Source: a virus. Taken from it: a stretch of 56,663 nucleotides of DNA. The notes beneath the pieces were generated by a model. That model was given only the letters and a program-made list of their open reading frames with translations. It did not search any database and was not told the origin of the DNA. Below, in pieces: positions 2-40,428 of the stretch. Both the position numbers and the translations under genes were made by a program. The stretch is from the IMG/VR virus record IMGVR_UViG_3300032284_000958, positions 1-56,663 of that record, one strand, 5' to 3'. Position 1 is the first letter of the stretch; each line of letters starts with the position of its first letter.

Positions 2-526
2 AGCATCAATGTTAAGGACAATTACATTGAGTTCCGTAGTGCTGGCGGTAATTACTTTGAAATGCAGCAAGAAATTAAAGATACCATGATGCGTTATGTT
101 TATGTCATGGGTATCAGTGCTGTTCCTGAATTATATCGCAATGAGTATATGAAGAAACTGTATAAGTTGATTACTGATGCGATACCACAAAAAGATAGTA
201 GTATTGATTTGTTTGTTAAATTTACCAGTGGCATGATAACAAAGGATGAATTAGTTAAGAACCTACAGTTGAAGCGTGGTCTTGATAAACCTGCACCTAA
301 ACTAAAAACACCAAAACAACCACGCCAGCCTCGCACTCGTGCACCACGACGTAACCCAAACCAATATCTCATTACTGATGAGTCTGGCAATAGGGAATTG
401 CATTATTTTATTGCAAGAAATGAAGAGGAAGCATTGTATTATGCTTCTGAATGGGCTGGAAATCATGGTCTTGAAAGTTATGCAGTATATCATGATGACG
501 GCAGTGGTGTACGCACCGAAGTATAA
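2..526 (+). CDS. Amidoligase-like protein, C-terminal part (5' end outside window)
   Basis: The reading frame is open from base 2, so this is the tail of a longer gene. The first residues (NYIEFRSAGGNYFEM) match the conserved Arg-containing strand of the amidoligase-like modules in the next gene (VEFRSPGGNW and YIEFRAAGDDY), and the helical stretch that follows (MRYVYVMG..EYMKKLYKLI) also matches. A basic Pro-rich linker (PKQPRQPRTRAPRRNP) leads to a roughly 50-residue C-terminal unit starting QYLITDESGN, which recurs several times in the next gene. Amidoligases are ATP-dependent carboxylate-amine ligases related to glutamine synthetase; the substrate here is unknown. It ends 30 nt before the next gene. 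Module identity is by eye from motif pattern. Confidence 0.7.
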   Translation, partial: SINVKDNYIEFRSAGGNYFEMQQEIKDTMMRYVYVMGISAVPELYRNEYMKKLYKLITDAIPQKDSSIDLFVKFTSGMITKDELVKNLQLKRGLDKPAPKLKTPKQPRQPRTRAPRRNPNQYLITDESGNRELHYFIARNEEEALYYASEWAGNHGLESYAVYHDDGSGVRTEV

Positions 527-556: not shown

Positions 557-3500
557 ATGAAACAACACGAAATCCTCTCTGAAGAAGAAATCCTTAACGA
601 AGTAAACATGAGTCCATCAGCATTACGTGATGCTGTTAAAAAGATTCCTGGAGCCAGAGCAGGTCTTGAGTTTGAACTCATTGTTACCGCTGATGGCGAC
701 GATGTTGATGATGACTATGACCCATATGAGGATTTTGATAGCGAACCAGATTATGACATGGATGAATATATCCGTGAAAGTAGTTGGGGTGGTTTGGAAG
801 GGGCTGTTATGGACTTCTTCCGTGGTGACCACAATTCTCGCCGTCAGATAACCACAGAATTAGTATCTGCAAGAGAAGATTACGAAGGTTGGCTATCTAA
901 TAAGTTTGTAGAATGGGGCGATGGCTACGACACTGATAGTCAACTTACTCGTCTCGGTGCATGGATTGAAAAAATGTATGGCGGAGTTGACCCAAAATAT
1001 CAGGGTGAACTATTCGGTGATGAACCACTTGATGCATTTGCTAGTTTTAAGAAAGAGTATTTTACAAACTGGATAGAGATGTCCGAAGAAGAGTCAGACT
1101 TCATTGAGAAATGGTTAGAGGACCAATGTGGTGGCACCTCAATGAGTGACTTCGGTAACACATATGATTTAAATTGGCCACACTGGACTGAACCTGATTA
1201 TGATAATCGTTCAAGCAGAGATGGTGGTCCACCAATCGGCAGTTTCAGTAGTGCAGTTGGTATGAACGTTGACTATAGTGGTTCATATCATGGTCGTAGT
1301 AAGAGTTTAAGAAATTATACTGTTGAACCTGATAGCAGCCTACGTGCAAATGGGCGTAAGGGTGGAGAAGGTTGGGAGTTTGTTTCTCCTCCACTGCCAG
1401 TTGATGACATGATTGAACAACTTCGTAAGGTTGCAGAATGGGCAAAGTCTGGTAATGCTTACACCAATGATAGCACTGGTCTACACATGAATATCAGTTT
1501 GCCTGGTTATAATTTAGCTAAACTTGACTATGTTAAGTTAGCACTATTCTTAGGTGACAAGTATGTTCTTGAAACATTTGGTCGTCTTGGTAATACATAT
1601 GCCGAGAGTGCATTTGAAAAAATTACTAGTACAATTAAAAACAATCCCGACCGTGCTGGACAAGCACTTGACCTACTACGTAAGAGTCTTAATCTCGAAG
1701 CTGGTAAGGCAATTCATAGTGGACAAACACAGAAGTTTGTTAGTATCAATACCAAAGACAATCGTGTAGAGTTCCGTAGTCCAGGTGGTAACTGGTTGGA
1801 CATGGACTTAGATACTGTTGTCAACACAATTCTACGAACTGTTCTAGCACTTGATATTGCTATGGACCCTACTAAAGAAGTAAAAGAATACCAGAAAAAA
1901 TATTATAAGTTACTATCACAGGCTAAAGGTACTGACAATGATACTATTAAGTATTTCGTTCAGTATGCCAGTGGCAATCTACCAAAGACTGCACTGCTAT
2001 CATTTGTGCGTGATGCACAACGTAAGCGTGATGTAGCAAAGGGAAAAGATACTAAAGACAGTGATAACAGAACTAACTTAGCTGGTACTACACCACCTGC
2101 CGAATACAATCCAAAGTATTCAATCTACCTACCAAATACTAACATGACTGCACGAGATATACCAAATAATGAACCTGTAGTGCAATATGTTAGAGCATGG
2201 GCAGAACGTCGTAATGGAAACCTAGATACTATACGTATTCTTAGCAATGAAACTGGAATGTTATATGACCTTGAAGGTAATCGTGATAGAAACTTAAGAA
2301 GTGTTGATTTAGGCACAGTTCGTCGTCCAGTAACCGCACAAATTAGATATTATGTAAAAAGTGGCACACCAGAAAACAATTATAATATGACATCATTCGT
2401 GGCTGATGGTGACAGTTCTGCTCGTAGTTATGTAACTGATAATAGACCGTATGGTCAATGGTTCCTTATTCGTGATGATAAACCAAATGAATCAATTATG
2501 AGTGTTGGGCCAGCCAGTGATTCTAATGCTGCACCACAGTCATCATCAGCAAGCACAATTCCCGATTTAACTTCATCAGAAACAACAGGCGGACAGCTAT
2601 ATCAAATGCTACGACCAAGTGGTCCAAATCCAGTGATTGCACAAGGTAGATTTAACGATCCAAGTGAAGCAGTGCAGAGATTTGGTGCTTATGCTGATGC
2701 AAATAATATTGCACGTAATGAATACCATGTGCATCGTCCAACTCAACAACCTGAACAAGCCGCATCACAAGGTGGACAACAGTTTGAAATTGTATCAGGT
2801 GGTAATGTTATACATCGTTTTAATGCAGCAAGCCAACCAGAAGCATATCAAATTGCCGTTCGTTATGCACGTGATAATGGACTTGTAAATGGTAGATGGA
2901 CATGGAGAACTGTAGGTGGTGAACGTCAACAATCTGCAAATCCAGAAGGTCCAATGTATGAAATAGTAGCTGAAGGTAATATTGTTCATGAGTTTCGTGC
3001 CGTATCACCACGTGCTGCTGAACGCTATGCACAATCATGGGTAGATGAGCATTTAGGTGATTTTGGTTATGACGTTCGTCTTGCATCACGTAATGAAAGT
3101 TTAGGTGAAAGTATTCTAAACGAAATCAATATGAGTCCAACATCTCTACAGAAATTTGCTGATTCACCATTTGCACAGAGTATGAAAGTTGGATTTGAAA
3201 CTGAACTTTATGTTCCCGACCTTGAAAACGATAACAATCGAAATTATAGTGACAGCGAAGAAGATATGGATGAAGATATATCCTTTCCCGCACGTGCAAA
3301 TTATATAGACCGTCGTGATAGAGTTACTGTTTTCTTTATAGGCGGTGATAATCAGCCAAATGACCGTAGTGATATTCGTGCTGCACTTGACGAAACCGAT
3401 GAAGCATTCATGGAATGGGTAAGTGAAGAGTTTTATAACTATAAAGACTCAAGTGAATATAAATCAAATTTAGCAAGACACTTAGCAGATGAGGGTGTTG

Positions 3501-5449
3501 ATACAGAAGATGAAGATGCAGTAGAAGCTGCCACAGAAGAATTTGAAGAACAGGAACGTGAAGAGTACGAAAATGAAGAAGCACGTTGGCGTGAGTTTTT
3601 AAGTGAGAAAGATATTGATTCAATGCACGATTGGATGCGTTGGGTGAATCGTAATAGTCCAAGAATTACTATCTATTGGCCATATATGATATATCGTGGT
3701 GGCGGTGATTTAACACGTGACGATATCGCAGATTTGTTTACACAACAAACTGGATTAGGTCCAACTAAAGTAGGTGATGGTTATCATAGTGTTAAACGTG
3801 ATGAAACACACTGGATTTTTGAACCAGATGGCAGTTTAGATGAACCAGATGATGATAATGATGGCAGTGTAGAAATTGTTTCTCCGCCAATGTCTCTTGA
3901 AAATGCGTTAAGTTCTCTTGAAACAGTATTCAAGTGGGCAAGTAAGAATGGTTATTATACTAACCAATCAACTGGTTTCCATATGGGTGTTAGTATTCCA
4001 GAACAGACTATGGAAAATATTGACCACCTAAAAGTAATCATGTTACTTGGCGATAATTATGTTCTTAAAAAGTTCAATCGTTATGGTGCATACTTTGCAC
4101 AAAGCACAATTGACCGTATCACTGAATTTTTAAAGAATAAAGACAGGGAAGGATTAGCTTCAGTATTTGATGAGTTCCGCAATGGTATACGTGAGTTTGC
4201 ATATAAAGAAATCAATAAATTATTGCTTCCTGGCGCAGACCATAGATTAACTGTCAATATTAAGAAAACGTATATTGAGTTCCGTGCAGCAGGTGATGAT
4301 TATCTACCACAATTTGAAGAAATTCGCAAAACAATGTTGCGATATGTTCGTGTATTAGCTGCTGCGGCTGACCCCGAAGATGGTCGCAGAGAGTATCAAA
4401 AGAAATTGTATAAAAATATCATGAGTTCTATTAAAAAATCTGATGATACGGTTGACACTACAATTAATATACTTTCAGATTTTGTTGCTAATCCTGACTC
4501 TAAGAAAGAGGATTTACAACCATTATTATTAAAATTAGTAAGAAAATCTAATATAGCTCGCACTGTGCCAAAAACCATTGGTAGTGGTGAAACCCAAGTT
4601 AAAGTCTTTAGAAGAAAAAATGATGACGTTTTAACCAGTGATGACCAGATTAGTACTATTAATGCAACAACAGTTAATGAACTTGTAAAATATGCAAGAG
4701 AGATGGCTGATAAGGCTAATATGAATTATGAAGATATAGTTCTTAAGCCAGTGGCAAAATATTTTATTCGTTATCGCATAGAAACAGGCGATGCCAGAGA
4801 AAATTATGGCATAATGGCTCTTGGTCAAAATAGAAATTATAATTTAGGAATCGCTGCCGATCTGATGAATGTTCCTAAAGAGTATGCAGAGAAGGTAATA
4901 AAGTTTTATATTGAACATCAATATGCGTTGAGTAATTTAGTTAGTGATTTAAGTTACATCAAACTGCCCACCAAAGAGGCAGTTGACCGTGCTATTTCGT
5001 TGGTTAACCCAGAACAAAAAAATGACAATCCAGACGATAATGGGCCAGGACGATATGCGATATTTGTTCAAGGCAGACAATTATCGGCGGATCGTCAATT
5101 GGATAGTAAAGAAGCCGCTGAAGATTTTTTTAGTGACGTAGCAAGAACTATTGGATTACAGAATTGGGAGGTTAAACGTGTTCAATCTCAACAACCCGCA
5201 CAACAGCGTCAGAGTGCTCAGCAAGAACGTCAGGATTTGACACTTGTTAGAACTATTGGTAATCCAAATCTAAGAACTCCCAATTACATATTCTATGTGG
5301 TAAATTCTAATAATGTAGTTGTGCTTAGAATACAGGCAGCTACGATAGAAGATGCGAACAGTTATCTACAGAGAGATTTGAATCAAACGGCAGATGGCAT
5401 ATCAGAATTAAATTTATCTGTAATACCATCAACACAGTGGCATAGTTAA
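557..5449 (+). CDS. Giant protein with two amidoligase-like modules
   Basis: A 1630-residue protein with two copies of an amidoligase-like (COOH-NH2 ligase) module. Module 1 has GLEFEL at 36-41, STGLHMN at 306-312 and VEFR at 404-407. Module 2 has VGFETEL at 878-884, STGFHMG at 1138-1144 and IEFR at 1240-1243. The GxExE, GxH and EFR trio is the usual signature for Mg-ATP and substrate binding in this family. Between the modules and at the C-terminus lie about five small repeats of roughly 45-50 residues (near 680-729, 739-786, 798-846, 1498-1542, 1576-1623). The N-terminus, MKQHEILSEEEILNE, resembles a T4 capsid-targeting sequence, and ESILNEINMSP before module 2 repeats the same pattern. It may be a virion-packaged enzyme; the substrate is unknown. 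Confidence 0.75.
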   Translation: MKQHEILSEEEILNEVNMSPSALRDAVKKIPGARAGLEFELIVTADGDDVDDDYDPYEDFDSEPDYDMDEYIRESSWGGLEGAVMDFFRGDHNSRRQITTELVSAREDYEGWLSNKFVEWGDGYDTDSQLTRLGAWIEKMYGGVDPKYQGELFGDEPLDAFASFKKEYFTNWIEMSEEESDFIEKWLEDQCGGTSMSDFGNTYDLNWPHWTEPDYDNRSSRDGGPPIGSFSSAVGMNVDYSGSYHGRSKSLRNYTVEPDSSLRANGRKGGEGWEFVSPPLPVDDMIEQLRKVAEWAKSGNAYTNDSTGLHMNISLPGYNLAKLDYVKLALFLGDKYVLETFGRLGNTYAESAFEKITSTIKNNPDRAGQALDLLRKSLNLEAGKAIHSGQTQKFVSINTKDNRVEFRSPGGNWLDMDLDTVVNTILRTVLALDIAMDPTKEVKEYQKKYYKLLSQAKGTDNDTIKYFVQYASGNLPKTALLSFVRDAQRKRDVAKGKDTKDSDNRTNLAGTTPPAEYNPKYSIYLPNTNMTARDIPNNEPVVQYVRAWAERRNGNLDTIRILSNETGMLYDLEGNRDRNLRSVDLGTVRRPVTAQIRYYVKSGTPENNYNMTSFVADGDSSARSYVTDNRPYGQWFLIRDDKPNESIMSVGPASDSNAAPQSSSASTIPDLTSSETTGGQLYQMLRPSGPNPVIAQGRFNDPSEAVQRFGAYADANNIARNEYHVHRPTQQPEQAASQGGQQFEIVSGGNVIHRFNAASQPEAYQIAVRYARDNGLVNGRWTWRTVGGERQQSANPEGPMYEIVAEGNIVHEFRAVSPRAAERYAQSWVDEHLGDFGYDVRLASRNESLGESILNEINMSPTSLQKFADSPFAQSMKVGFETELYVPDLENDNNRNYSDSEEDMDEDISFPARANYIDRRDRVTVFFIGGDNQPNDRSDIRAALDETDEAFMEWVSEEFYNYKDSSEYKSNLARHLADEGVDTEDEDAVEAATEEFEEQEREEYENEEARWREFLSEKDIDSMHDWMRWVNRNSPRITIYWPYMIYRGGGDLTRDDIADLFTQQTGLGPTKVGDGYHSVKRDETHWIFEPDGSLDEPDDDNDGSVEIVSPPMSLENALSSLETVFKWASKNGYYTNQSTGFHMGVSIPEQTMENIDHLKVIMLLGDNYVLKKFNRYGAYFAQSTIDRITEFLKNKDREGLASVFDEFRNGIREFAYKEINKLLLPGADHRLTVNIKKTYIEFRAAGDDYLPQFEEIRKTMLRYVRVLAAAADPEDGRREYQKKLYKNIMSSIKKSDDTVDTTINILSDFVANPDSKKEDLQPLLLKLVRKSNIARTVPKTIGSGETQVKVFRRKNDDVLTSDDQISTINATTVNELVKYAREMADKANMNYEDIVLKPVAKYFIRYRIETGDARENYGIMALGQNRNYNLGIAADLMNVPKEYAEKVIKFYIEHQYALSNLVSDLSYIKLPTKEAVDRAISLVNPEQKNDNPDDNGPGRYAIFVQGRQLSADRQLDSKEAAEDFFSDVARTIGLQNWEVKRVQSQQPAQQRQSAQQERQDLTLVRTIGNPNLRTPNYIFYVVNSNNVVVLRIQAATIEDANSYLQRDLNQTADGISELNLSVIPSTQWHS

Positions 5450-6294: not shown

Positions 6295-6819
6295 ATGCGT
6301 GTTTCAGAAGTCATAAAACGCCCACCACACCGTGTATATCTTGATATGGACGGCGTTTTGGCTGATTTCTTTGGCGAGTGGGCCAGACTTGATGGCGTAG
6401 ACCACTACAAAGACATTGACAATCCTGAAGCCAAACTCCAGTTAGTCAGAGAGCATCCTACCTTTTGGGTAGATTTGCCACCCCTACCAAATGCTAAAAA
6501 TCTTATACGCACTGTTGTATCACTGTTTGGTGAATACTATATTTGCAGTTCACCACTGGCAAATGACCCACGTAGTGAGCCAGGAAAATTAGAGTGGATT
6601 CGTAAACATTTGAGTTTCATGCCACCGACCGATGTGGTATTAACACATAATAAAGCACAATTTGCAACACATAACGGCGTTCCAGCAATTCTTGTCGATG
6701 ATTATGGCAAGAATGTTCGTGCGTGGGACGCTGCTGGCGGAATAGCTATCAAGTATGACGATAGTAGTTTCGGCCAAGTCAGAAAGATTCTTACCACCAT
6801 TGCTAAAGGTGAGAAATAA
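6295..6819 (+). CDS. 5'(3')-deoxyribonucleotidase-like HAD hydrolase
   Basis: 174 residues from ATG 6295; the longer upstream reading frame lacks support because AAGGAG (6277-6282) and the promoter lie inside it. The HAD nucleophile motif is YLDMDGVLADF near 15-25 and the acidic motif is ILVDDYGKNVRAW near 139-151, the pattern of the NT5C family that dephosphorylates dNMPs. Residues PLPNAKNLI and YICSSPL fit the cap and motif II region. It probably trims or balances nucleotide pools, in keeping with the DHFR and ThyA genes later in the window. A packaged-protein leader is not obvious although the start, MRVSEVI, is similar to its neighbours. Confidence 0.8.
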   Translation: MRVSEVIKRPPHRVYLDMDGVLADFFGEWARLDGVDHYKDIDNPEAKLQLVREHPTFWVDLPPLPNAKNLIRTVVSLFGEYYICSSPLANDPRSEPGKLEWIRKHLSFMPPTDVVLTHNKAQFATHNGVPAILVDDYGKNVRAWDAAGGIAIKYDDSSFGQVRKILTTIAKGEK

Positions 6820-7481: not shown

Positions 7482-8423
7482 ATGGATTACGAAATCAAAA
7501 ACAGTACTGTATACGGTAAAATATTATATAAGGACGGTCGTCCTGTTATCGTAAATTACGATACTGCAGATAAGTTAGCGGAACGCTTTCGTGGTACACT
7601 TATAAAAGTTTATTCTGGTAGATATATGATTAAACTGCCAGAAAGTGCAAATTCAATTGAAGAATGTGATTGCGGTGGCAGTGATGATGGTATTGAAATT
7701 ACTGGGCAAATTATGCCAGATACCTACAGTCAAGAACCAGACCATGAAGTTCAAATGGCTCGTCAAGAAGTATATCGTACTGCTAAACTTGCAATTAAAC
7801 TACATGAAATGCTTAAGCAAGTTGGCGAACAGCAGGGATTAGAAGGCTGGGTTCAGCGTAAACTAACACGTGCTGCTGATTATATTGAAACTGTATACGA
7901 CTATCTTGATTATGAAATGCGTTATCCAAGTGACATGATGGAAGCAGATGAACAACCAGCCCAAGCACCTGCACCTGCTGGTTCAGATATGGCATTAAAG
8001 CAAAAAAATCTAGCTATGCAACAACAACGTTTGCAGCAAGAAGAACAAAAAAAGGCAATGGGTAAAGTTAAAATGGGTCGTCTTGATGCATCTGGTCGCC
8101 CAATACCTAATAGTATAAAAGAAGTTCCAGATGAACAGATTGAAATGCAGCGCAAGGCTGGATTAACGATTGTTGGCGAAAATGCTAGTGGTGGCGCAAG
8201 CAGTGCTGGTGGTATGGCTGGTGCAATCGGTGGTGGATTTGGTAATGGATTTCTAAATGGTGGTCCAGGTACTATCACTCGTGCGCCTAAGAAGCGTAAG
8301 AAGAAAGTAAGTGAAACAGATATTCCTGTAAAAGAAGGAGAAACTGGTCCAAAATTCACTGGATATTGGAAAGGCACTGATAAAGGCAAACCAGGCAAAA
8401 AGATGGTAGGCGGTGGTCCATGA
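7482..8423 (+). CDS. Conserved phage protein with GPKFTGYWKGTDKG C-terminal motif
   Basis: 313 residues. The N-terminal third is compact with a CDCGG motif near 63-67. Residues about 88-148 form a helical conserved domain (MARQEVYRTAKLAIKLHEM, GLEGWVQRKLTRAADYI). The centre is a Gln-rich coiled segment, followed by a Gly-rich linker and a basic stretch (PKKRKKKV). The C-terminal motif GPKFTGYWKGTDKGKPGKKM recalls proteins I know from T4-like marine phages, where function is unknown. The basic, low-complexity tail fits a DNA- or head-associated protein. It overlaps the next gene by 4 nt (ATGA). Confidence 0.7.
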   Translation: MDYEIKNSTVYGKILYKDGRPVIVNYDTADKLAERFRGTLIKVYSGRYMIKLPESANSIEECDCGGSDDGIEITGQIMPDTYSQEPDHEVQMARQEVYRTAKLAIKLHEMLKQVGEQQGLEGWVQRKLTRAADYIETVYDYLDYEMRYPSDMMEADEQPAQAPAPAGSDMALKQKNLAMQQQRLQQEEQKKAMGKVKMGRLDASGRPIPNSIKEVPDEQIEMQRKAGLTIVGENASGGASSAGGMAGAIGGGFGNGFLNGGPGTITRAPKKRKKKVSETDIPVKEGETGPKFTGYWKGTDKGKPGKKMVGGGP

Positions 8424-9508
8424 GAATAACCGAAATCATCTCAGAAGATGACAATGGTAATGTTACAAATAATGGTAGTTGGAAAATTGACCAGCAAAAA
8501 TTCTTTGACCAAATTGGATTAACAAACAGATTACAAAAAGACCCTGCCGCACGTCTTGGTTATGAAATAGCAAAAAACCCAAAAACTGGTGTTATTGATG
8601 CAATCGGCGATGCTGGCACATATTGGGATGCTAAAAAAGGTGAAGGCACCGCTGGCGAATTTACATATAACCAAATTGGTAGTGGCACCATCAAAGCATT
8701 AGACAAAATGGTTGGTAAAGTAGGACAAACTCCTATCACACGAGAATTGTCTGTTGGTGGCATTCCACCAAGAACACAAAATTCACAAGGTTACCCAACA
8801 AGCCCTACGTCAAATCTTGAAATGTATGGTGATGTCTTAGCACACGAGTTAGGACACGTCGGGTCTCTTTATGCACAGGGCGTTCCACAGGCAGACCTCA
8901 CAACTATGGCACCAGATCAGAAAAAAACTATTAGCACTGCTGGTGCAAACAATGAAGAACAACAACGATATAGAGATTTGCAATATACTGCTCCAGGTTC
9001 TAGTCAGTATAATCAAGCTGTTGATTGGTTAGCGAATAACAAATTTAATACTCCCATTAATGACTATAGTGATTATGAAGATTTTGGAAAACAGATTTTA
9101 GACCGTGGTGTTCCAGACCATGTTAACGATGCAGCAAAATTATCATCAGATGCATTAAATGACCCACAAAAATTGCAAAGTTATATACAAGATTATCATG
9201 GTGATAAAACCAACGAGAGTTTGAGAGAACATAAAATGAAAATAAATGAAATTATATCAGAAGCAGCTAATCCCGCAAAACAAGCAGCTATCGCCATCAA
9301 TATGAAAAAACATGGCAAGAAACCTAAAAATGAAACTGCCGTTAGTGAAGTAGCAAAGAAAAAAGGACCAAAGCCAACTAATCCAGCATTGTGGAGTCGT
9401 GCAAAAGCAGCAGCACGTGCAAAATATGATGTATATCCAAGCGCATATGCAAATGGATATGCTTCAAAGTGGTATAAAGAACACGGCGGCGGTTGGAGGG
9501 GAAAGTGA
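8420..9508 (+). CDS. HELGH metallopeptidase-like protein, capsid-targeting-like leader
   Basis: 362 residues. The leader MRITEIISE resembles a T4 capsid-targeting sequence with an I-S-E cut site. YGDVLAHELGHVGSLY near 136-151 contains HELGH, the HExxH zinc motif of zincin peptidases; the third ligand is not certain. Near 273 a second leader-like motif, MKINEIISE, begins a separate basic C-terminal part with AKQAAIAINMKKHGKKPK and the phage motif YPSAYANGYASKWY. This looks like two packaged proteins fused in one gene, perhaps separated by the prohead protease. Peptidase activity is inferred from the motif alone. Confidence 0.65.
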   Translation: MRITEIISEDDNGNVTNNGSWKIDQQKFFDQIGLTNRLQKDPAARLGYEIAKNPKTGVIDAIGDAGTYWDAKKGEGTAGEFTYNQIGSGTIKALDKMVGKVGQTPITRELSVGGIPPRTQNSQGYPTSPTSNLEMYGDVLAHELGHVGSLYAQGVPQADLTTMAPDQKKTISTAGANNEEQQRYRDLQYTAPGSSQYNQAVDWLANNKFNTPINDYSDYEDFGKQILDRGVPDHVNDAAKLSSDALNDPQKLQSYIQDYHGDKTNESLREHKMKINEIISEAANPAKQAAIAINMKKHGKKPKNETAVSEVAKKKGPKPTNPALWSRAKAAARAKYDVYPSAYANGYASKWYKEHGGGWRGK

Positions 9509-11148: not shown

Positions 11149-11697
11149 ATGTTATTAAATGAATTGTTCTCACAGTTAGATGAAGTTGGTGGCGTAGGTG
11201 TCGTTGCTGGCAATAAAAAGATGGCACGTGACCCACGCTATTCCATGAGTCAAACTGTTGATATTGGACCTGGCGAGACACAAAAACAAGCTGCAAAGTT
11301 TGGTAATAAGACTGACAAGTTAGGTGTTCCACCAAGACTTCGTGCTGATGGTAAAGTTACTGAAGCAGCAATGAGTGTTGGCATACAAGGTCGTCATCCT
11401 GTCAGTGCGGGTGCACGTGGACTAATGGCTGCACGTTGGAAATACGATAAGGTTATTGATGGTTCAAATGCTAAGAATCTTGATAATGCAACTGCAAGAT
11501 TGGCACATCGTTTAGGTGATATTGACCATGAAACGGATTATGACAGTATTGATAATACTATGCAAGAAATTTGCATGGCATTTCATATCAATCCAAAAGA
11601 ATTGCATGACGCATTTATTGCACGTTATAATTTGACACCAGACAAATATTCCGTTAAAATGAAGCATGTCCTCAAAAATCGCCCAAAATCAGTCTAA
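11149..11697 (+). CDS. Conserved phage protein, capsid-targeting-like leader
   Basis: 182 residues beginning MLLNELFSQLDEVGG, again a leader ending in L-D-E. Then follow KKMARDPRYSMSQTVDIGPG and a helical C-terminal half with LAHRLGDIDHETDYDS. No family recognised. Its ATG touches the previous stop and its end overlaps the next gene by 32 nt, so the block is probably one transcript. Confidence 0.65.
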   Translation: MLLNELFSQLDEVGGVGVVAGNKKMARDPRYSMSQTVDIGPGETQKQAAKFGNKTDKLGVPPRLRADGKVTEAAMSVGIQGRHPVSAGARGLMAARWKYDKVIDGSNAKNLDNATARLAHRLGDIDHETDYDSIDNTMQEICMAFHINPKELHDAFIARYNLTPDKYSVKMKHVLKNRPKSV

Positions 11698-23752: not shown

Positions 23753-24883
23753 ATGGCTAAGAATACCGATGCCGCACTCTCTGAAGTGCGTTCTGTCACC
23801 CTCGCTGCTGCTAAGCGTGAGATTATGGTTTGCGTTCGTCGCAAACGTCCTGTGTTCCTGTGGGGTGCTCCAGGTATCGGCAAGTCCGAACTGGTTGCAG
23901 GTCTCTGCGATAGCATGGGTGGCAAGTTGTATGACCTTCGTCTTGCACTTATGGACCCTTCCGATTTGAAGGGTGTTCTCTACTACAATCCTGTTGCAGG
24001 TTCTGCAATGTGGAACCAGCCGCCAGACCTTCCTACGAAAGAGGAAGCTGCCAAGTATCCGATTGTGTTCTTGTTCCTCGACGAAATGAACTCGGCTGCT
24101 CCTGCAACACAGGCTGCTGCTTACCAGTTGGTTCTTAACCGTCGTGTCGGTACATATGAACTGCCTGATAACGTTGTTATCGTTGCCGCAGGTAACCGTG
24201 ATACTGACCGTGGTGTTGTGTATCGTATGCCTTCCCCGCTTGCCAACCGTTTTGTTCACTTGAACTTGCGTGTTGACTTCGAGTCGTGGAACGAATGGGC
24301 ACTCAACAACAAGATCAATCCTGACGTTGTTGCCTATGTTACGTGCAATAAGAACGATCTGTTCAACTTCGATCCTCGTTCTTCTGGTACGGCATTCGCT
24401 ACGCCTCGTTCGTGGTCGTTCGTTTCGGAACTTCTGCAAGAAGACCTTAACGATGTCGAACTCAATGACCTTGTGTCAGGTACGGTTGGTGAGGGAATTG
24501 CTCTCAAGTTTGCTGCACACCGCAAGGTTGCATCGCAGATGCCTAACCCGTCTGACATTCTGGCAGGTAAGGTTAAGGAACTCCGCACTAAGGAAATTGG
24601 TGCAAAGTACTCCTTGACGGTTTCTATCTGCTACGAACTCAAGGACAGCTACGATAAGTTTGGCGGTGATCGTATGAAGGACGCTGACAATACCCAGTGG
24701 CATGGTGAACTGGACAACGTGTTCCGCTTCTTCTTGGATAACATGGATACTGAACTTCAGGTCATGATGCTCGCTACTATCCTGCGTAACTACAAGTTGC
24801 CTATGAAGGCTAGCAAGCTGACGAACTACAAGGAATATCACGCTAAGAATGGCGACTTCATTCTTAGTGCGGTGCGGGACTAA
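23753..24883 (+). CDS. MoxR-family AAA+ ATPase
   Basis: 376 residues. Walker A is GAPGIGKS (38-45) and Walker B is FLFLDEMN with D110 and E111. AAGNRDTDRGVVYRMPSPLANRF holds sensor 1 and the Arg-finger region. MoxR ATPases act as chaperones with VWA-domain partners, and the partner is encoded at 25769. Codon use is richer in G and C than in nearby genes, as in the VWA gene. Expression is from the promoter at 23695 and ends at the terminator at 24927. Confidence 0.88.
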   Translation: MAKNTDAALSEVRSVTLAAAKREIMVCVRRKRPVFLWGAPGIGKSELVAGLCDSMGGKLYDLRLALMDPSDLKGVLYYNPVAGSAMWNQPPDLPTKEEAAKYPIVFLFLDEMNSAAPATQAAAYQLVLNRRVGTYELPDNVVIVAAGNRDTDRGVVYRMPSPLANRFVHLNLRVDFESWNEWALNNKINPDVVAYVTCNKNDLFNFDPRSSGTAFATPRSWSFVSELLQEDLNDVELNDLVSGTVGEGIALKFAAHRKVASQMPNPSDILAGKVKELRTKEIGAKYSLTVSICYELKDSYDKFGGDRMKDADNTQWHGELDNVFRFFLDNMDTELQVMMLATILRNYKLPMKASKLTNYKEYHAKNGDFILSAVRD

Positions 24884-25768: not shown

Positions 25769-27031
25769 ATGGCTAAAAAATCGTCTAATCCAGCTATCAA
25801 GCTGAGCGAAACAATCGATCCTGTGGCAGATGCCAAGGCTCGTGAAAACATCCTTAAAGCACGTATTGCGCTTGTGCTCAAACAGCCGTTTTTCGGCAAT
25901 CTTGCTATGCGTCTTAAATTGGTAAATGCCGATAGCTGGCTTACCACGGCGGCTACAGATGGTCGTCACTTCTATTACAATTCCTCGTTCATCAATCTGC
26001 TTGACACTCAACAGAACCTGTTCTTGTTCTGCCATGAGTTGCTTCACTGTGCATATGACCATATGAGCCGTGGTATCGGCAAACAGAAAGATATTGCCAA
26101 TATTGCCATGGATTATGTAGTCAATGCCGATTGTCTCAAGTATGGTCTTGGTAAGAAAATCACGGTTGTTCCTATCCTGTATGACCGCAAGTATGAAGAT
26201 TGGAACTTTGAACAGGTGTATGAAGACCTGATCAAGAATGCAACCAAAATTAACATGGATGACCTTCTTGACCAACTTCTTGATGACCATCTTGATAACA
26301 ATAAAGATGAAAAAGATGGTAATGGCGATAAGAAAGATGGCAAGGGTAATGGTCGCCCATCGTTGTCGCCAGAAGAACGTCAGGCTATCCGTGATGAGTT
26401 CAAGGAAGCTATGCTTGCTGCTGCTCAAAGTGCAGGTGCTGGGAACGTCCCAGGAAACATCAAGCGTATGATCAACGAACTGACCAACCCTAAAATCAAT
26501 TGGCGTGAGTTGATTACTCAACAAATCCAGTCTACTGTTAAAAACGATTACACATGGACTGTGCCTAACAAGAAGCATTTTTCTAACGGATTTGTGCTTC
26601 CTAACATGCGTAAGGATCAGGCTATTGATGTTTGCTGTGCAATTGATACCAGTGGTTCTATCTCACAGGAACAAGTAACTGAGTTCGTAAGTGAGATTGC
26701 AGGTATCATGCAGACTTTTGATGATTACAAAGTCAAAGTATGGTGCTTTGATACCTCTGTCCACAATGCGGCAGACTATGACATTGGCAATGGTCACGAA
26801 ATTGCCGCATATGAAATGGGTGGTGGTGGCGGTACTGACTTTGACGCTAACTGGCAGTGGATGAAATACGAAGACATTACACCAAAAATGCTCATCGTAT
26901 TTACTGATGGTGAACCATACGGTTCATGGGGTGATGAAAACTATTGCGATACCGTATGGATCATCCACAACCGTTATCGCAAGGATATTGTCCCACCATT
27001 TGGTGTAAGTGCATACTACGACGAAGCATAA
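25769..27031 (+). CDS. VWA-domain protein with zinc-peptidase-like N-terminus (MoxR partner)
   Basis: 420 residues. FCHELLHCAYDHMSRG near 88-103 carries HELLH (H89, E90, H93) and a downstream His, a zinc-peptidase-like site. After an acidic/Lys-rich linker (near 170-200) the C-terminal half is a VWA-like fold with MIDAS motif AIDTSGSISQE (D293, S295, S297) and IVFTDGEPYG. This combination is known from phage and bacterial proteins found with MoxR ATPases. It may remodel or cleave a host or virion protein under ATPase control. G+C-rich codon use matches the MoxR gene. Confidence 0.8.
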   Translation: MAKKSSNPAIKLSETIDPVADAKARENILKARIALVLKQPFFGNLAMRLKLVNADSWLTTAATDGRHFYYNSSFINLLDTQQNLFLFCHELLHCAYDHMSRGIGKQKDIANIAMDYVVNADCLKYGLGKKITVVPILYDRKYEDWNFEQVYEDLIKNATKINMDDLLDQLLDDHLDNNKDEKDGNGDKKDGKGNGRPSLSPEERQAIRDEFKEAMLAAAQSAGAGNVPGNIKRMINELTNPKINWRELITQQIQSTVKNDYTWTVPNKKHFSNGFVLPNMRKDQAIDVCCAIDTSGSISQEQVTEFVSEIAGIMQTFDDYKVKVWCFDTSVHNAADYDIGNGHEIAAYEMGGGGGTDFDANWQWMKYEDITPKMLIVFTDGEPYGSWGDENYCDTVWIIHNRYRKDIVPPFGVSAYYDEA

Positions 27032-34266: not shown

Positions 34267-35377
34267 GTGAGCGATAACCTGGCATTAAGTATGCAATCTG
34301 TCTCTCTTCATGGTCAACATCTGCCCAACTGTAATCGTATACTGCGGTCACACCATCAACTGTGATACTGTAAATATCCAAATAATCACCCATCATTTCC
34401 CAAATCTTATCTACGTCATTAGTTCCAAAACTACGTTGCGTATCAATACGGGCCAACTCAAGATAGCCGAGACTAAGATTGGTGTCACTGGGACTATAAC
34501 CCTCACGAACCAACCAAGCACGATACCTGTCTTGCTCATCGGTATGCCAAGAATGTATTCCATAACATACATCACGACCCCACTCAATATCAAACTCACC
34601 ACTGTAATACTGTAGGTGAGTAATTGCGTCACAGGTTGCCTTATCAAGTTCTGGTGCACCTTCATCTCGGAAAACTTCCATAAGAGTTTTTCCAATTTGT
34701 GTCCAGTGCATATAAATGTGTGCAAATCTTCTATCGTAACCATTTTTTATAAATCCTTGACGATGTTCTGGTGTAAGGTCATGTCGGCGAGCATTTAAGA
34801 ATGTTGTTATTTGGCTAGGGCGAACCCATTGCGGGTCATAGTGCGCCTTACGTATGCTGAGACACAGTGTTTCAATTTCATGGCATAGGTTATTGATTTG
34901 TCTTATGCTGTATTTTACTTCTGGTGATGCAAGTTTGTAATACGGACTAAGATTTTCAACTGTGCCTTGTAGGTGTTCAAAATAATTATGAACAATATTC
35001 ATAACATCATGATTTGGTCCACCACCACGCTTGCCTGATTCGTTTATACCAGTAAGTGGTATCATTACCAGTTGCGGCGTATAGTGCGTGACTAGCGGAT
35101 ATGGGTCAAGGCCCACACTTTGCCAAATATTAGTATCATTAAAGTTATCAACCCGTGTAGTGTGGCGACTTAGTTCACGTGTAAGATATTCAAGATTGCG
35201 TTGAGAGTTAGGCCACCCATGCCAGCAATAATTTTTTTCAAGAACACTGTTACGGTGCAATTCATCCTGCAATGCCACTACCCAATCTTTAGCAAGCTGC
35301 GTATCGTTTGGTTCAATATATACTGGTAATAGTTTAGACTTATCCAGTGGATTGCGTAGTGTCATTATAATGGTCAT
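34259..35377 (-). CDS. Hypothetical phage protein in the radical-SAM operon
   Basis: 372 residues from ATG 35377, which overlaps the upstream stop as ATGA; an ATG at 35392 is the other option. Segments include GLDPYPLVTHYTPQLVMIPL, GGGPNHDVMNIVHNYFEHLQ, and WTQIGKTLMEVFRDEGAPEL. No CxxxCxxC or DxD motif is present, so it is neither a radical SAM enzyme nor an obvious glycosyltransferase. I do not recognise the family. The tight coupling argues it works with the five radical-SAM proteins. Confidence 0.6.
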   Translation of the reverse strand: MTIIMTLRNPLDKSKLLPVYIEPNDTQLAKDWVVALQDELHRNSVLEKNYCWHGWPNSQRNLEYLTRELSRHTTRVDNFNDTNIWQSVGLDPYPLVTHYTPQLVMIPLTGINESGKRGGGPNHDVMNIVHNYFEHLQGTVENLSPYYKLASPEVKYSIRQINNLCHEIETLCLSIRKAHYDPQWVRPSQITTFLNARRHDLTPEHRQGFIKNGYDRRFAHIYMHWTQIGKTLMEVFRDEGAPELDKATCDAITHLQYYSGEFDIEWGRDVCYGIHSWHTDEQDRYRAWLVREGYSPSDTNLSLGYLELARIDTQRSFGTNDVDKIWEMMGDYLDIYSITVDGVTAVYDYSWADVDHEERQIAYLMPGYRSHV

Positions 35378-36672
35378 ATGTTGTTCCACCATGCCAGCAC
35401 ATCAAGACGTGCTGATAATATCTTTTCTATTGTTATCTTATCATCTTTACGAACCGTTTCCAATTTTAATAAATGTGCCTTACCAATCTTAGCATCATGT
35501 TCATATGTGTCTGGAAACTGCTCAGCAAAGGTAGGTCGTGTCTTAAGATGTTCAAGTGTATCCCAGAGACTTTGAGTTCGGCGTGTTATCTTATCCTTTA
35601 TTTTAGATTGAATATCTTCAATAAACGGTATAAGAATGTTTCGTGGTAATGCCAGTGGACTTAGTAGTATATCTGGCGAAAACGCAAAGATTACTTTACT
35701 GAGTAAATCTACATTCAGTTCATCAGCAAGAGCAATGATATTTTCCAAATCGTATAGCCCAAGGGTAGTAAGAGTAAAGTCAAGACGCATCTGACGAGGG
35801 TGTCTTGAGTGTATAATGCCATCTCTAAAGTTCCGTAAAAAACTATCATAATCAAGGCCAGTTCTAATATATTCACCGATATCTCCTGTTCCATCTAAAC
35901 TTGCACATATTTCCCAGTGCGGAAATTGCTTTAATAAATCCCATAATGTTCCTACCTTATCTTCTACATAACTTAAGTTAGTATTGTAACGGATACGAAC
36001 TTGGTCTGCGTATCCCAACTCAACAATGCGGCGCATGTATGTCCAGTGTTCATCATATAGCAGTGGCTCACCGCCTACCCAATAGATTTCACGCACACTT
36101 TTATTTTCAATTGCACTACGAAACTCTGGTATTACCGTATCACGTGTGAAGTTACGAATAGCATGGCGATTCTTTGACTGCATCCAAAAGTTTTTAGGAT
36201 TGTTCAGGTCTACCATATTATTTTTAGTGACCTCAACTTCCCACGATGAACTTAACATGTCGCCGCACATACGGCATTTGAAGTTGCATACATTACTGTA
36301 GCGATAATCCCAAGAGATAGGTTCTAGTGTAGTATGCCCGTCAGCATCTGTATTAGCCAAGACGCTATCACGTAGATGACCAAAAAGATGTCCAAAGTAA
36401 TCACGATATACAGAAGTGTTAAGTAACTTTTTATCGCAGACCTCACATGCTGATGGAACTTCACCAGCCAACCATTGCTTTCTAATCGTTCTAATATGTT
36501 CGCCATTCCACCAATCCTTTAATGTGAGCGGCGTAAACTGTCCATCACCACCAGCCGTATCAATATACTGTTTGAAGTTCTGCGCAGGTTCTCGTGACGC
36601 ACAGCACAGTCGCCGTTCACCTTGTGGTGAAATATAGGTGTGCGTAAATGGCGCTAAGCAAAAATCATTCAT
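35374..36672 (-). CDS. Radical SAM protein 1 (Cys-rich N-terminal region)
   Basis: 432 residues. The radical-SAM cluster motif is NVCNFKCRMC (C129, C133, C136). GGEPLLYDEHWTYMRR follows as the typical GGEP strand that binds SAM. Before the core is a Cys-rich region with C5, CC at 23-24 and CxxC at 76-79, which looks like a half SPASM/twitch-type auxiliary cluster site placed at the N-terminus. Likely a 5'-deoxyadenosyl radical enzyme modifying a peptide, sugar or nucleotide; substrate unknown. Overlaps its neighbours by 4 and 8 nt. Confidence 0.85.
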   Translation of the reverse strand: MNDFCLAPFTHTYISPQGERRLCCASREPAQNFKQYIDTAGGDGQFTPLTLKDWWNGEHIRTIRKQWLAGEVPSACEVCDKKLLNTSVYRDYFGHLFGHLRDSVLANTDADGHTTLEPISWDYRYSNVCNFKCRMCGDMLSSSWEVEVTKNNMVDLNNPKNFWMQSKNRHAIRNFTRDTVIPEFRSAIENKSVREIYWVGGEPLLYDEHWTYMRRIVELGYADQVRIRYNTNLSYVEDKVGTLWDLLKQFPHWEICASLDGTGDIGEYIRTGLDYDSFLRNFRDGIIHSRHPRQMRLDFTLTTLGLYDLENIIALADELNVDLLSKVIFAFSPDILLSPLALPRNILIPFIEDIQSKIKDKITRRTQSLWDTLEHLKTRPTFAEQFPDTYEHDAKIGKAHLLKLETVRKDDKITIEKILSARLDVLAWWNNI

Positions 36673-37807
36673 AGCCGATTGCCGCCGCTATTTCAGGATG
36701 ATGGTCACTAAACTTTTGATTACGCTGTACATCACTTTGTTTTAGCACACGAACTAAATCTGAGCCATCACTACTCATGCCCTTATACATAAACGTTAGC
36801 AAGTTTTTAACTTCGTCTGCGTATGGTCCACTATAATTTGCATACTTGTTATAAATCAAATCTTTTGCACGTTGTGTTAGGTGTGAGATACTAAAATGCC
36901 AAGCGTCATGCAGTACATTGAAGTAAACATAATCAAACCGTTGATGTGGTATCCACTCACACATCTCATCAATGTAGTAAAAGTTCTGAACGTTTGTTGT
37001 CAGACATAGTTGTAGTATAATATTAGAATTGGCATCACGCAGTTCACGGAACTTCTGTAGATTTTCCAGCGTCTTTTCCCAATTAGCACCATACCGTTGA
37101 TACTCAAATCGTGGGCCGATGTCATCGATACTCAGTGCAATCTCTACTGACTTAAAGTGTGGCCACAGTTCTAACCCACGCTTTGGTATTGTAGTTGTAT
37201 TGGTATTATAGTGTATATCAATGTCTTTGGCGTATCCCATCTCAACTGCTATCTCAAGCAGTGTGAAGTGCTCATCGATAAGGAATGGCTCGCCGCCTGT
37301 AAACTCAAAGTATCTTACGTTGGCTAACAGTTCTGTTAGGTCAGTCCAAAATGCATCTGCTTTACGTGGCCAACGACCATTCATAAGATTTTGTCGTGCC
37401 GTCATATTGTCAGGGTATATGTCTAATTCTTCTGATGCCCACTTACTGCTACTAAAGCTGCCGCATATACGACACTTAAGATTACAAATATTGCCAAGTT
37501 TTAAATCAAGGAATACTAACTTGCTTTCATCAGTGTTGACATTCTTTAACTTATCTAGTGTATGTTGACGTTTGCTTTTACGACCAGCGTCTTCTTCTGC
37601 CCAACAACGACCACACTCTTCTGGCTTTTCACCACGAAGAAACTGCTCACGTAATCCATACATATAATCACTGTTAAAGGCTTCGCTAAGTGTATTTTTC
37701 TTTAAGTTGATATCTGGAATAGTTTTAGTAGACAGGCAGCATACCTTACACTTACCCATTGGGTCAGCTTCGAGACTGGTAAATGGCAATAAACATAGGT
37801 TACTCAT
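36665..37807 (-). CDS. Radical SAM protein 2 (Cys-rich N-terminal region)
   Basis: 380 residues. CNLKCRIC (C108, C112, C115) is the cluster motif and FTGGEPFLIDEHFTLLE the SAM-binding strand. N-terminal Cys are at C5, C20, the pair at 23-24 and CxxC at 65-68. SPASM/twitch-like N-terminal region as in the other four copies, but shorter and more diverged. Probably a paralogue by old duplication. Function unknown. Overlaps neighbours by 8 nt on both sides. Confidence 0.85.
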   Translation of the reverse strand: MSNLCLLPFTSLEADPMGKCKVCCLSTKTIPDINLKKNTLSEAFNSDYMYGLREQFLRGEKPEECGRCWAEEDAGRKSKRQHTLDKLKNVNTDESKLVFLDLKLGNICNLKCRICGSFSSSKWASEELDIYPDNMTARQNLMNGRWPRKADAFWTDLTELLANVRYFEFTGGEPFLIDEHFTLLEIAVEMGYAKDIDIHYNTNTTTIPKRGLELWPHFKSVEIALSIDDIGPRFEYQRYGANWEKTLENLQKFRELRDANSNIILQLCLTTNVQNFYYIDEMCEWIPHQRFDYVYFNVLHDAWHFSISHLTQRAKDLIYNKYANYSGPYADEVKNLLTFMYKGMSSDGSDLVRVLKQSDVQRNQKFSDHHPEIAAAIGYE

Positions 37808-39071
37808 ACAGATATCCTAACTCTGGTATAGCATCTAATATATTTTCATTTCTAATAGAATCTAATTGTGCAGTTTTAATTTTAAACTGTGACAAAAGAT
37901 TACTTCTGTCATCTGCCATCATAAAATTAATTGCACTTTCAAATCCAGTTGTTGCTCGTTTAAGGTGATCTTGGGGTTTAAGCCAATCAATATGTTCTAG
38001 GTATGCTTCTCGTATATCAACTTTATATTGATGTGGTAGCGCATCAATACGATAGTGTGGTGGGTCTTGTAGTATGTTAATATTTAAATCTTGTGGCTTT
38101 AGGAAACCACGGCTTACCCAATCACGATGGAAATGTGGAAGATGCAGTGCATTGAGTATGCTTAACGTAGGACTAATATAAAAATCAACACGTGGGCAAA
38201 TGTTTAACATTTGTTCACGATTCTTTTCAACCTGTGACCAATTAGTTCCTTTACGAATATACTCCGCATGTCTTCCCATAGCATCTAGACTTGCGCCTAC
38301 GCTCACACTATCAAACTCACGCCACAACTCCAACACATTTGTTTTCTTGTAGCTAAGCTGACTAAAATTAGTGTTGTATATTAGGCGAACATCAGTTCGA
38401 CCACGACGAATTAATTCATGTATTAGACGATAGTGTTCTTCCATAATAAGTGGCTCACCGCCAGCAAAGTAAACCTGTTCAAGATTGTCAATCTGTGGTT
38501 CAAGCTGATTCCAAATGTCATCTTCACTACGGCCAGCAAAGTTAATGCGAGTATTAGTGTATGCCCACTCAGGTCCAGCCAACTTAACTTGGTCATCATA
38601 CCAATTTGAACTAAAAATATGACCACAGCTACGACAACGAAGATTACAAAGATTGCTGAAACGAATATCCCAATAAATCATTTTCATAGGTGGCGTAGGA
38701 TTATCAGTTAGCGCAATATGATGACCAAAGTGTTTATTAGCACTCATTCGCATACTAAAGAAACCACTGTCCTCTTGTTCGTAACAGCGAGTGCAACCCT
38801 TTACTGATTCACCACTAAGCATCTTAGTTCTAACGTCGTGCATTGCCTCACTATCCCAAATCTCTTGAAGAGTTTGGTTACGAGTGTTGCCAATAGTCTC
38901 ACTCATTTCGGTGTTACAGCACGGATATGCTTCGCCAGTTGGAAACGCATGTAGATGAATCCACGGATACATGCAGAACGATTTATTTTCAAATATAAGT
39001 TCTTTATGCTTATCACTTAGCTCATCAACAGATATTTTAAGTGGCTCTTTACCATTATAATTATAAGCCAT
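37800..39071 (-). CDS. Radical SAM protein 3 (Cys-rich N-terminal region)
   Basis: 423 residues. CNLRCRSC (C142, C146, C149) and FAGGEPLIMEEHYRLIHE. N-terminal Cys include C33, the pair at 51-52 (YPCCNTEM) and CxxC at 93-96 (CTRC). Follows the common plan of the set. It overlaps the upstream gene by 11 nt and the next by 8. Substrate unknown. Confidence 0.85.
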   Translation of the reverse strand: MAYNYNGKEPLKISVDELSDKHKELIFENKSFCMYPWIHLHAFPTGEAYPCCNTEMSETIGNTRNQTLQEIWDSEAMHDVRTKMLSGESVKGCTRCYEQEDSGFFSMRMSANKHFGHHIALTDNPTPPMKMIYWDIRFSNLCNLRCRSCGHIFSSNWYDDQVKLAGPEWAYTNTRINFAGRSEDDIWNQLEPQIDNLEQVYFAGGEPLIMEEHYRLIHELIRRGRTDVRLIYNTNFSQLSYKKTNVLELWREFDSVSVGASLDAMGRHAEYIRKGTNWSQVEKNREQMLNICPRVDFYISPTLSILNALHLPHFHRDWVSRGFLKPQDLNINILQDPPHYRIDALPHQYKVDIREAYLEHIDWLKPQDHLKRATTGFESAINFMMADDRSNLLSQFKIKTAQLDSIRNENILDAIPELGYLYE

Positions 39072-40428
39072 TATACCAATCTTTAAGTTCAGGAAACGTT
39101 TCTACAAAGTTCTTTCCACGGCGCACATCATACTGTTGATAGAAGTTCTTAAAATCTTTAAGAAGAACACTATGATTACTTGCACCTTCGTGTGGTGAGT
39201 CTGCTGTATTTAAGTATTCAATCACACGTTTAATATGTTGTATTTCCATATCATGTAGATAATACCCATCACTGTTACGTTCAAGAAATGCCTCTAATTG
39301 TTTCACACACTCTTGTTTCACAAAATCTGGCATGACCGTAGGGCTTTGGAAACTTGGGAAGCGTAGTATATTAAGACTAACGGTAACAACATCACGACCA
39401 TATGACTGCTTGAATGTGAGCATGTGTTCTAAGAACTGTGGAAGTTTAAGCAAGCACAATCCGTTAATAGTCGCCATCACGTGCAATTGCTTAACTGCTC
39501 CGCTCGCACGTAAGTGCAACATATTGTCAAACCAGCTACTATAATCTAACCCATCACGAATATATTCTGCTTGGTTGCCCCAGCTTTCGCAACTTGTGTA
39601 TATTTCTACACCGTTAATATCACGAATCTTATCAATGAACTCGTCAAGTTTTTCCGTAGTCGTACCAAGGTTACTGTTGATAGCAAGAGACGTATCACTC
39701 TTACCACGGTTTTCTTTGAACCAGTCGAGCAACTTCCATGTGTGACCACTCATTAACGGCTCACCGCCAGTGATGCGTAGCTCACGTAGTGTCTTGTGTA
39801 AGTCTGACTCCCACCACGCAAAGAAGGCTTCTACATATGGGTTCGTATCAGTGAAGCCATATAGCTGAGAAGCATCATGTAAATGGGTAAAATGATTGCG
39901 ACCATCGCTAACAAGGTCAGAGTATGGTCCATTATTTTTAATGTCCTTAACCCAAGTAGTACTAAAGGCGGGATTACAATAACTGCAAGCAAAGTTACAA
40001 GTTCTATCAAAGGCTATCTCCAACGTTCGTAGGTTTATATCTTTTGAAGGTGATGCAGCATATGCTTCATCAAGTTCTTCCTCACTATATATCTTACTTT
40101 TGTAAGGACGGTCACTGACAGCATTTGGTGAATTGTCTTCTATACGCCAGCAGTATTCACAACCTTGTGGTCGCTGTCCAGTTTGCATCATAAGACGTTC
40201 CACTTTTTTTTGGTCAGTGTTATGAATCGCACTAGGATTGTCGGCCAACTTATCAAGGGGAATAGCGTGTGGTAGAGGATGGTGACAGCTTGTAGTTTGT
40301 CCACTACCTAACCAGATAGTTGCATTATACCACTTGGCACCACAGAATGATGCACTCTTGGTATCAAGAACACGACTTTTATATTCTTGGTATGTCTCGT
40401 TAGGAAGTTTACTGGAGTTGTGTTTCAT
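39061..40428 (-). CDS. Radical SAM protein 4 (Cys-rich N-terminal region)
   Basis: 455 residues from ATG 40428 (MKHNSSKLPNETYQEYKSRV), chosen to limit overlap with the upstream gene; an ATG at 40464 adds 12 residues. Cluster motif CNFACSYC (C144, C148, C151) and ITGGEPLMSGHTWKLLDW. N-terminal C29, C48 and CxxC at 90-93 (CEYC) lie in a segment (CHHPLPHAI, NPSAIHNT) nearly shared with copy 5. Copies 4 and 5 therefore form one subfamily with a longer N-terminus. Confidence 0.85.
   Translation of the reverse strand: MKHNSSKLPNETYQEYKSRVLDTKSASFCGAKWYNATIWLGSGQTTSCHHPLPHAIPLDKLADNPSAIHNTDQKKVERLMMQTGQRPQGCEYCWRIEDNSPNAVSDRPYKSKIYSEEELDEAYAASPSKDINLRTLEIAFDRTCNFACSYCNPAFSTTWVKDIKNNGPYSDLVSDGRNHFTHLHDASQLYGFTDTNPYVEAFFAWWESDLHKTLRELRITGGEPLMSGHTWKLLDWFKENRGKSDTSLAINSNLGTTTEKLDEFIDKIRDINGVEIYTSCESWGNQAEYIRDGLDYSSWFDNMLHLRASGAVKQLHVMATINGLCLLKLPQFLEHMLTFKQSYGRDVVTVSLNILRFPSFQSPTVMPDFVKQECVKQLEAFLERNSDGYYLHDMEIQHIKRVIEYLNTADSPHEGASNHSVLLKDFKNFYQQYDVRRGKNFVETFPELKDWYNGL

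Follow-up and report, generated by a model that had tools for sequence, protein, structure and literature searches.

Amidoligase modules behind predicted prohead-protease sites in a lineage of giant phages

The amidoligases encoded at the beginning of IMG/VR virus record IMGVR_UViG_3300032284_000958 and by its relatives are probably effectors packaged in the phage head, and probably ejected from it, with some fused into polyproteins that would be cut at head maturation. This reading draws on sequence comparison. The window analyzed here is the whole 56,663-base record (positions 1 to 56,663) and is best read as a fragment of a T4-type jumbo phage genome. The most informative part of the evidence is the pattern of leaders and junctions around the amidoligase modules.

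We infer packaging, cutting, ejection, and catalysis for these amidoligases. A short N-terminal leader resembling a capsid-targeting sequence (CTS) would carry the amidoligase protein into the prohead core, and the S77 prohead protease (T4 gp21 type) would cut after [L/I]-x-E, taking off the leader. In fused proteins the same cutting would part the modules, with predicted mature pieces of residues 16-856 and 857-1630 in the window protein. Once free, the modules would pass with the DNA from the head into the bacterium and, early in infection, would join a carboxylate and an amine using ATP, most likely on host proteins or metabolites. A broader proposal, to which we give a little better than even weight, is that a widespread T4-type jumbo phage lineage keeps the effectors it injects inside the head in the form of polyproteins. 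In these, enzyme modules would stand head to tail, the first alone would need a CTS, and the capsid maturation protease would part all of them inside the prohead; there would be many module types, amidoligases being one of them.

Amidoligase modules and a recurring small domain

The two-module amidoligase protein is a predicted polyprotein of 1630 residues encoded at 557..5449 on the + strand by an ORF uninterrupted from ATG to stop. Module 1 spans residues 16-507 (602..2077, +) and module 2 spans residues 857-1332 (3125..4552, +). Upstream, at 2..526 (+), lies the C-terminal part of a third amidoligase gene whose 5′ end is beyond the contig. Its product shares 41% identity with module 2 across 89 residues (E 5e-17) and matches model positions 376-472 in a profile search. 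Two halves matching Pfam PF12224 (Amidoligase_2), together with an upstream partial gene matching the C-terminal part of a module, make three modules in two genes, the same count that a sequence-only reading of the window had proposed.

The halves of the 1630-residue protein match PF12224 with E-values of 7.6e-9 and 1.2e-6 separately (36.2 and 29.1 bits; cut-off 22) and 7.6e-17 together, and both match phrog_2443, annotated as "amidoligase enzyme" in PHROG. The GxExE, GxH, and EFR motifs claimed for both modules are located in each: GxExE at residues 36-40 and 879-883, TN.STG.HM at 303-311 and 1135-1143, and EFR inside 403-411 and 1239-1247. The second His of GxHxH is substituted (HMN and HMG). 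Residues E39, E41, E247, D249, E264, H300, E399, and R401 are identical in all 72 aligned members. An AlphaFold2 model of module 2 (pLDDT 86) has as its best Foldseek matches in the PDB glutamine synthetase 4s17 (E 8e-4) and YbdK 1r8g (E 3e-3); this likeness is counted as local because the global superposition is weak, with a TM of only about 0.2. Sequence and model together support assignment of the modules to the COOH-NH2 ligases of the Amidoligase_2 family, where the sequence-only reading had placed them, and the modules would be expected to form amide bonds in an ATP-dependent manner.

The window family shares the conserved GxExE, DxS, ExVSP, GxH, and EFR motifs of Amidoligase_2 but differs in its LxE leader and in its fusions to small domains and other modules. 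Compared with four amidoligases of small phages, it has an extended and largely helical segment separating GxExE from EPDGS and lacks the second His of GxHxH, whereas the four small-phage enzymes lack the leader motif before GxExE. The R2K ATP-grasp peptide ligases of subgroup 2.2 jumbo phages have been predicted to carry out amide-forming modification of host proteins (PMC7824862). They resemble the window modules in occurring in the same broad phage group and in this predicted activity on host proteins, but they belong to another family: Pfam and Foldseek place the window modules with Amidoligase_2 and glutamine synthetase and give no ATP-grasp fold.

The small domain is a unit of about 45 residues that recurs between and after the amidoligase modules, close to the repeated domain of about 50 residues described from the letters alone. 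Full copies occur at residues 744-784 (2786..2908, +; profile E 1.3e-12) and 801-841 (2957..3079, +; E 5.3e-12) of the two-module protein and at residues 122-162 of the upstream gene (365..487, +; E 2.5e-13). Two further copies are weak and partial, at residues 698-725 (2648..2731, +; E 0.0024) and, near the C-terminus, 1581-1606 (5297..5374, +; E 1.5e-5). A model of two copies adopts a strand-strand-helix-strand fold (pLDDT 85) and has no PDB fold match at E 0.001 or better. In Pfam the protein G B domain gave a weak match at 20.1 bits, below its cut-off of 25; this is treated as chance, as are the PDB sequence matches of both profiles. Among the ORFs of the window and of the loci fetched by then, 143 bear the unit; 136 are amidoligase ORFs, and most of the other seven have CTS-like starts.

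Leaders and predicted cleavage sites

A short leader ending in [L/I]-x-E, its Glu invariant, precedes the domain in 72 of 72 aligned modules, a count that is slightly favorable because the alignment was picked from full-length profile matches. The leader may be the N-terminus of the protein, as in MRYREFELTEDELFE|L (the bar marks the predicted cut), or may lie hundreds of residues in, behind an unrelated domain, as in LLREFKEQDLFE|I of locus L055. The 1630-residue protein carries both forms, with L/I-x-E at residues 13-15 and 854-856 and predicted cuts after residues 15 (N-terminal type) and 856 (internal type). Its leader MKQHEILSEEEILNE (557..601, +) ends in the predicted prohead-protease site LNE|V and has a pattern common with its relatives; it resembles the CTS pattern but lacks the MRAxEF core. 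The predicted internal site LGESILNE| (residues 849-856; 3101..3124, +) stands at the module junction, and relatives have equivalent junctions.

In T4, gp21 has the specificity L/I-X-E, and the first 10 CTS residues of IPIII are enough to package a protein in the head (PMC9026906). T4 ipII and ipIII start MKTYQEFIAEA (read from NC_000866). The placement of the window amidoligases in a packaged-protein block, as the sequence-only reading had it, fits the leader and LxE evidence, which that reading had not mentioned; the packaging itself is predicted.

An alternative is that the LxE..M stretch has a purely structural role at the beginning of the domain in this amidoligase subfamily and always escapes cleavage, so that the proteins would act as uncut multi-domain enzymes. 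E14 and M17 are both invariant, adjoin the first helix, and could have a structural role; P1′ in the amidoligases is mostly V or I and not A/G/S. Overall density of [ILV]xE[AGS] in the amidoligase proteins shows no enrichment. Several observations nevertheless make a purely structural origin unlikely. Salicola phage SCTP-2 gp124 and gp125 retain IQE|G and INE|G but lack the MSP stretch, and locus L111, which departs from the usual register, retains FKQFLAE|KAM. Residues 1-12 of the modeled piece of module 2 have pLDDT below 50, consistent with a disordered leader, and its first helix begins at residue 19. Finally, unrelated modules retain LxE at the same junction position, as the comparison of fused and single proteins documents.

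Fused junctions and CTS-like starts

The mature part of each single CTS-type gene was matched against the full set of ORFs, and wherever a homologue lay inside a longer protein, the residue aligned to the cleavage Glu was scored. Glu occupies the equivalent position in 75 of 111 non-redundant internal junctions (68% versus 7% background), and [ILVMFA]xE does so in 69 (62%; the 2.7% background is taken from a larger set). In these 111 junctions, R2, A3, and F6 of the targeting peptide occur at the background rate, and E/D at position 5 is somewhat above it (0.33 versus 0.15). For example, the single gene start MRAQEFVTE|DNGPTRLKL corresponds to LMKDVAE|EEEPTRIKI in L055, and MRANEFLIE|RATSVVFHYTG corresponds to GVEPLTE|LATDVLYHYTG in L190. 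Plain gene fusion would be expected to retain leader and site alike; the site alone is retained, as selection for cutting predicts. The junction statistics treat related sequences as independent when they are not, so the nominal p of 1e-78 should not be read literally.

CTS-like starts are also frequent in other genes of the loci. In the fetched loci, 295 distinct non-amidoligase ORFs start M[RK][AYFLIVT]x[ED][FIL], compared with 7-8 for scrambled patterns; most read MRAxEF[ILV]xE, close to the T4 IPII/IPIII capsid-targeting peptide, and 166 of them have their first LxE placed so that its Glu is residue 9. Alignment of 140 such ORFs gives the consensus MRAxEFxxE and almost no other common feature. 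Two contigs scanned whole contain only 12 and 10 CTS-like ORFs, versus 2-3 for scrambled patterns. Pfam matches of CTS-like ORFs include GH19, NUDIX, GNAT, superoxide dismutase, NT5C, cytidine deaminase, and gamma-glutamyl cyclotransferase, a set of enzymes that could help to subvert the host or to shield the phage genome as it enters.

In the window's own neighbors, the CTS-like starts are weak. The gene at 6295..6819 (+) encodes an NT5C-type 5′-nucleotidase (PF06941, E 4e-14) that starts MRVSEVIKRP and has no clear LxE. The gene at 8420..9508 (+) starts MRITEIISE|D, with an IxE motif; its translation contains a HELGH zinc-peptidase-like sequence and an internal MKINEIISEA, and a Pfam search of the product gave no match.

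The sequence-only reading had also raised a cell-wall related activity, and nothing was found that points to a cell-wall substrate. A role as a cell-wall ligase or remodeling enzyme can draw on those CTS-like ORFs of relatives that are GH19-like or tail-lysozyme, since wall-active proteins may use the same export route. It is nonetheless highly improbable: among the amidoligase proteins that were examined, Pfam detects none with a domain that binds or is otherwise linked to the wall, and an ATP-dependent ligase would need the cytoplasm.

Locus L056 carries a gamma-glutamyl cyclotransferase-like gene (L056:9528-9965) with the CTS-like start MKITDILTE|A directly upstream of its amidoligase gene, placing amide-forming and amide-cleaving enzymes next to each other. 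Cyclotransferase-like genes are present in five loci in all, L056 and four others.

These five loci bear on a further alternative, in which the amidoligases stay out of the virion: they would be synthesized during infection and serve inside the cell in a pathway for small molecules or peptide tags, as other phage amidoligases do. One small-phage amidoligase lies near a gamma-glutamyl cyclotransferase gene, and another adjoins a glutamine amidotransferase gene. However, the L056 cyclotransferase gene itself has a CTS-like start, and the small-phage enzymes are without the leader, so an intracellular pathway of this kind seems distinctly unlikely and packaged effectors remain the preferred reading.

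Relatives, known systems, and neighboring genes

Relatives were collected with a family query made from an alignment of three sequences, the two window modules and a protein of Agrobacterium phage Atu_ph07. At least 137 IMG/VR stretches encode the amidoligase family, of which 80 were kept; a DNA pattern search gave further ones. A whole-protein search of IMG/VR with the 1630-residue protein gave no matches, and in a phage collection only Atu_ph07 and SCTP-2 match the whole protein at E ≤ 1e-3. A bacterial origin is unsupported, as GTDB genomes give one truncated stretch at the end of a 5-kb MAG contig. Sampled contigs of relatives are up to 524 kb long, and a single amidoligase module per genome is usual among the large relatives. 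The arrays had been described as uncommon; they do form a minority of loci, yet they are not rare, since about a dozen other loci hold two or three modules, either within a single ORF or spread over several (examples are L022, L041, L046, L056, L086, L096, L105, L106, L131, L145, L166, and L199).

Almost the entire window is collinear with contig G009 (338 kb), whose version of the two-module protein has 2851 residues and contains the same two modules, along with regions labeled HIGH-type nucleotidyltransferase, ParB-like, and ART-like by eye and not by Pfam. Nucleotidyltransferase, peptidase, deaminase, and GNAT modules occur in the amidoligase proteins of relatives. Of 12 records searched, 11 have a gp23-type capsid gene, the exception being only a 9.7-kb fragment, and 10 have an S77 prohead protease gene; G009 is among the relatives with a T4-type gp23 capsid gene and S77 protease. 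Neither gene was found within the window, itself a genome fragment. Capsid-protein propeptides of the relatives bear LxE-type sites (LLE|S, LLE|G, and similar). The Atu_ph07 homologue AUZ94978 corresponds to gp196 by an accession offset that fits gp198, gp204, and gp215. It lies two genes from the portal and within CDS 170-215, a cluster listed by the authors of that genome as rich in virion proteins (PMC6102473).

The T4 internal proteins IPI-IPIII and Alt are the closest comparison for the leaders. The consensus of the related loci, MRAxEF[ILV]xE|A/S, is nearly MKTYQEFIAE|A, and T4-type gp23 and S77 protease occur in the window's relatives. In contrast to T4 internal proteins, the window-family modules are enzymes, stand several to a polypeptide, and have internal LxE sites.

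Another comparison is with the polyvalent proteins that phages and conjugative elements encode (Iyer et al. 2017, PMC5512222). These are large multi-domain proteins whose modules include peptidase, GNAT, and nucleotidyltransferase types, and packaging and injection have been proposed for them. They are defined by 2-15 domains per phage polypeptide, and the 1630-residue protein has two amidoligases plus small domains. Like them, it may be delivered with the DNA into the host. For polyvalent proteins, domain separation has been discussed via built-in metallopeptidases, whereas for the window family it is proposed to occur via the prohead protease. The word "amidoligase" is absent from PMC5512222.

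Capsid-targeting work was found in the literature for T4, P1, and SPN3US. Neither effector polyproteins of the CTS type nor packaged amidoligases turned up in the limited literature searched, in which few subscription journals were represented, so this is weak evidence of novelty. If the proposal is true, an MRAxEFxxE leader with LxE junctions would flag head-packaged effectors in many uncultured giant phages, and the injected content of jumbo phages would be testable by ordinary virion proteomics. Amidoligases would join the list of injected phage enzymes, and the family would provide an example from phages of effector polyproteins that a capsid protease cuts apart.

Other genes of the window include five consecutive ORFs at 35377..41860 (-) that match Radical_SAM, three of them with SPASM and some with matches below the Pfam cut-off; their homologues stand in the same order in G009. 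A MoxR-type AAA ATPase (23753..24880, +) and a DUF2201 metallopeptidase-vWA protein (25769..27028, +) form a pair that resembles the chaperone pair of subgroup 2.2 jumbo phages (PMC7824862). The ORF at 11149..11694 (+) contains MARDPRYSMSQTVDIGPGETQKQAAKFGNK, which resembles KKQARDPRFxMALTxDVxPGxxGKEANKL from the linkers of fused amidoligase proteins.
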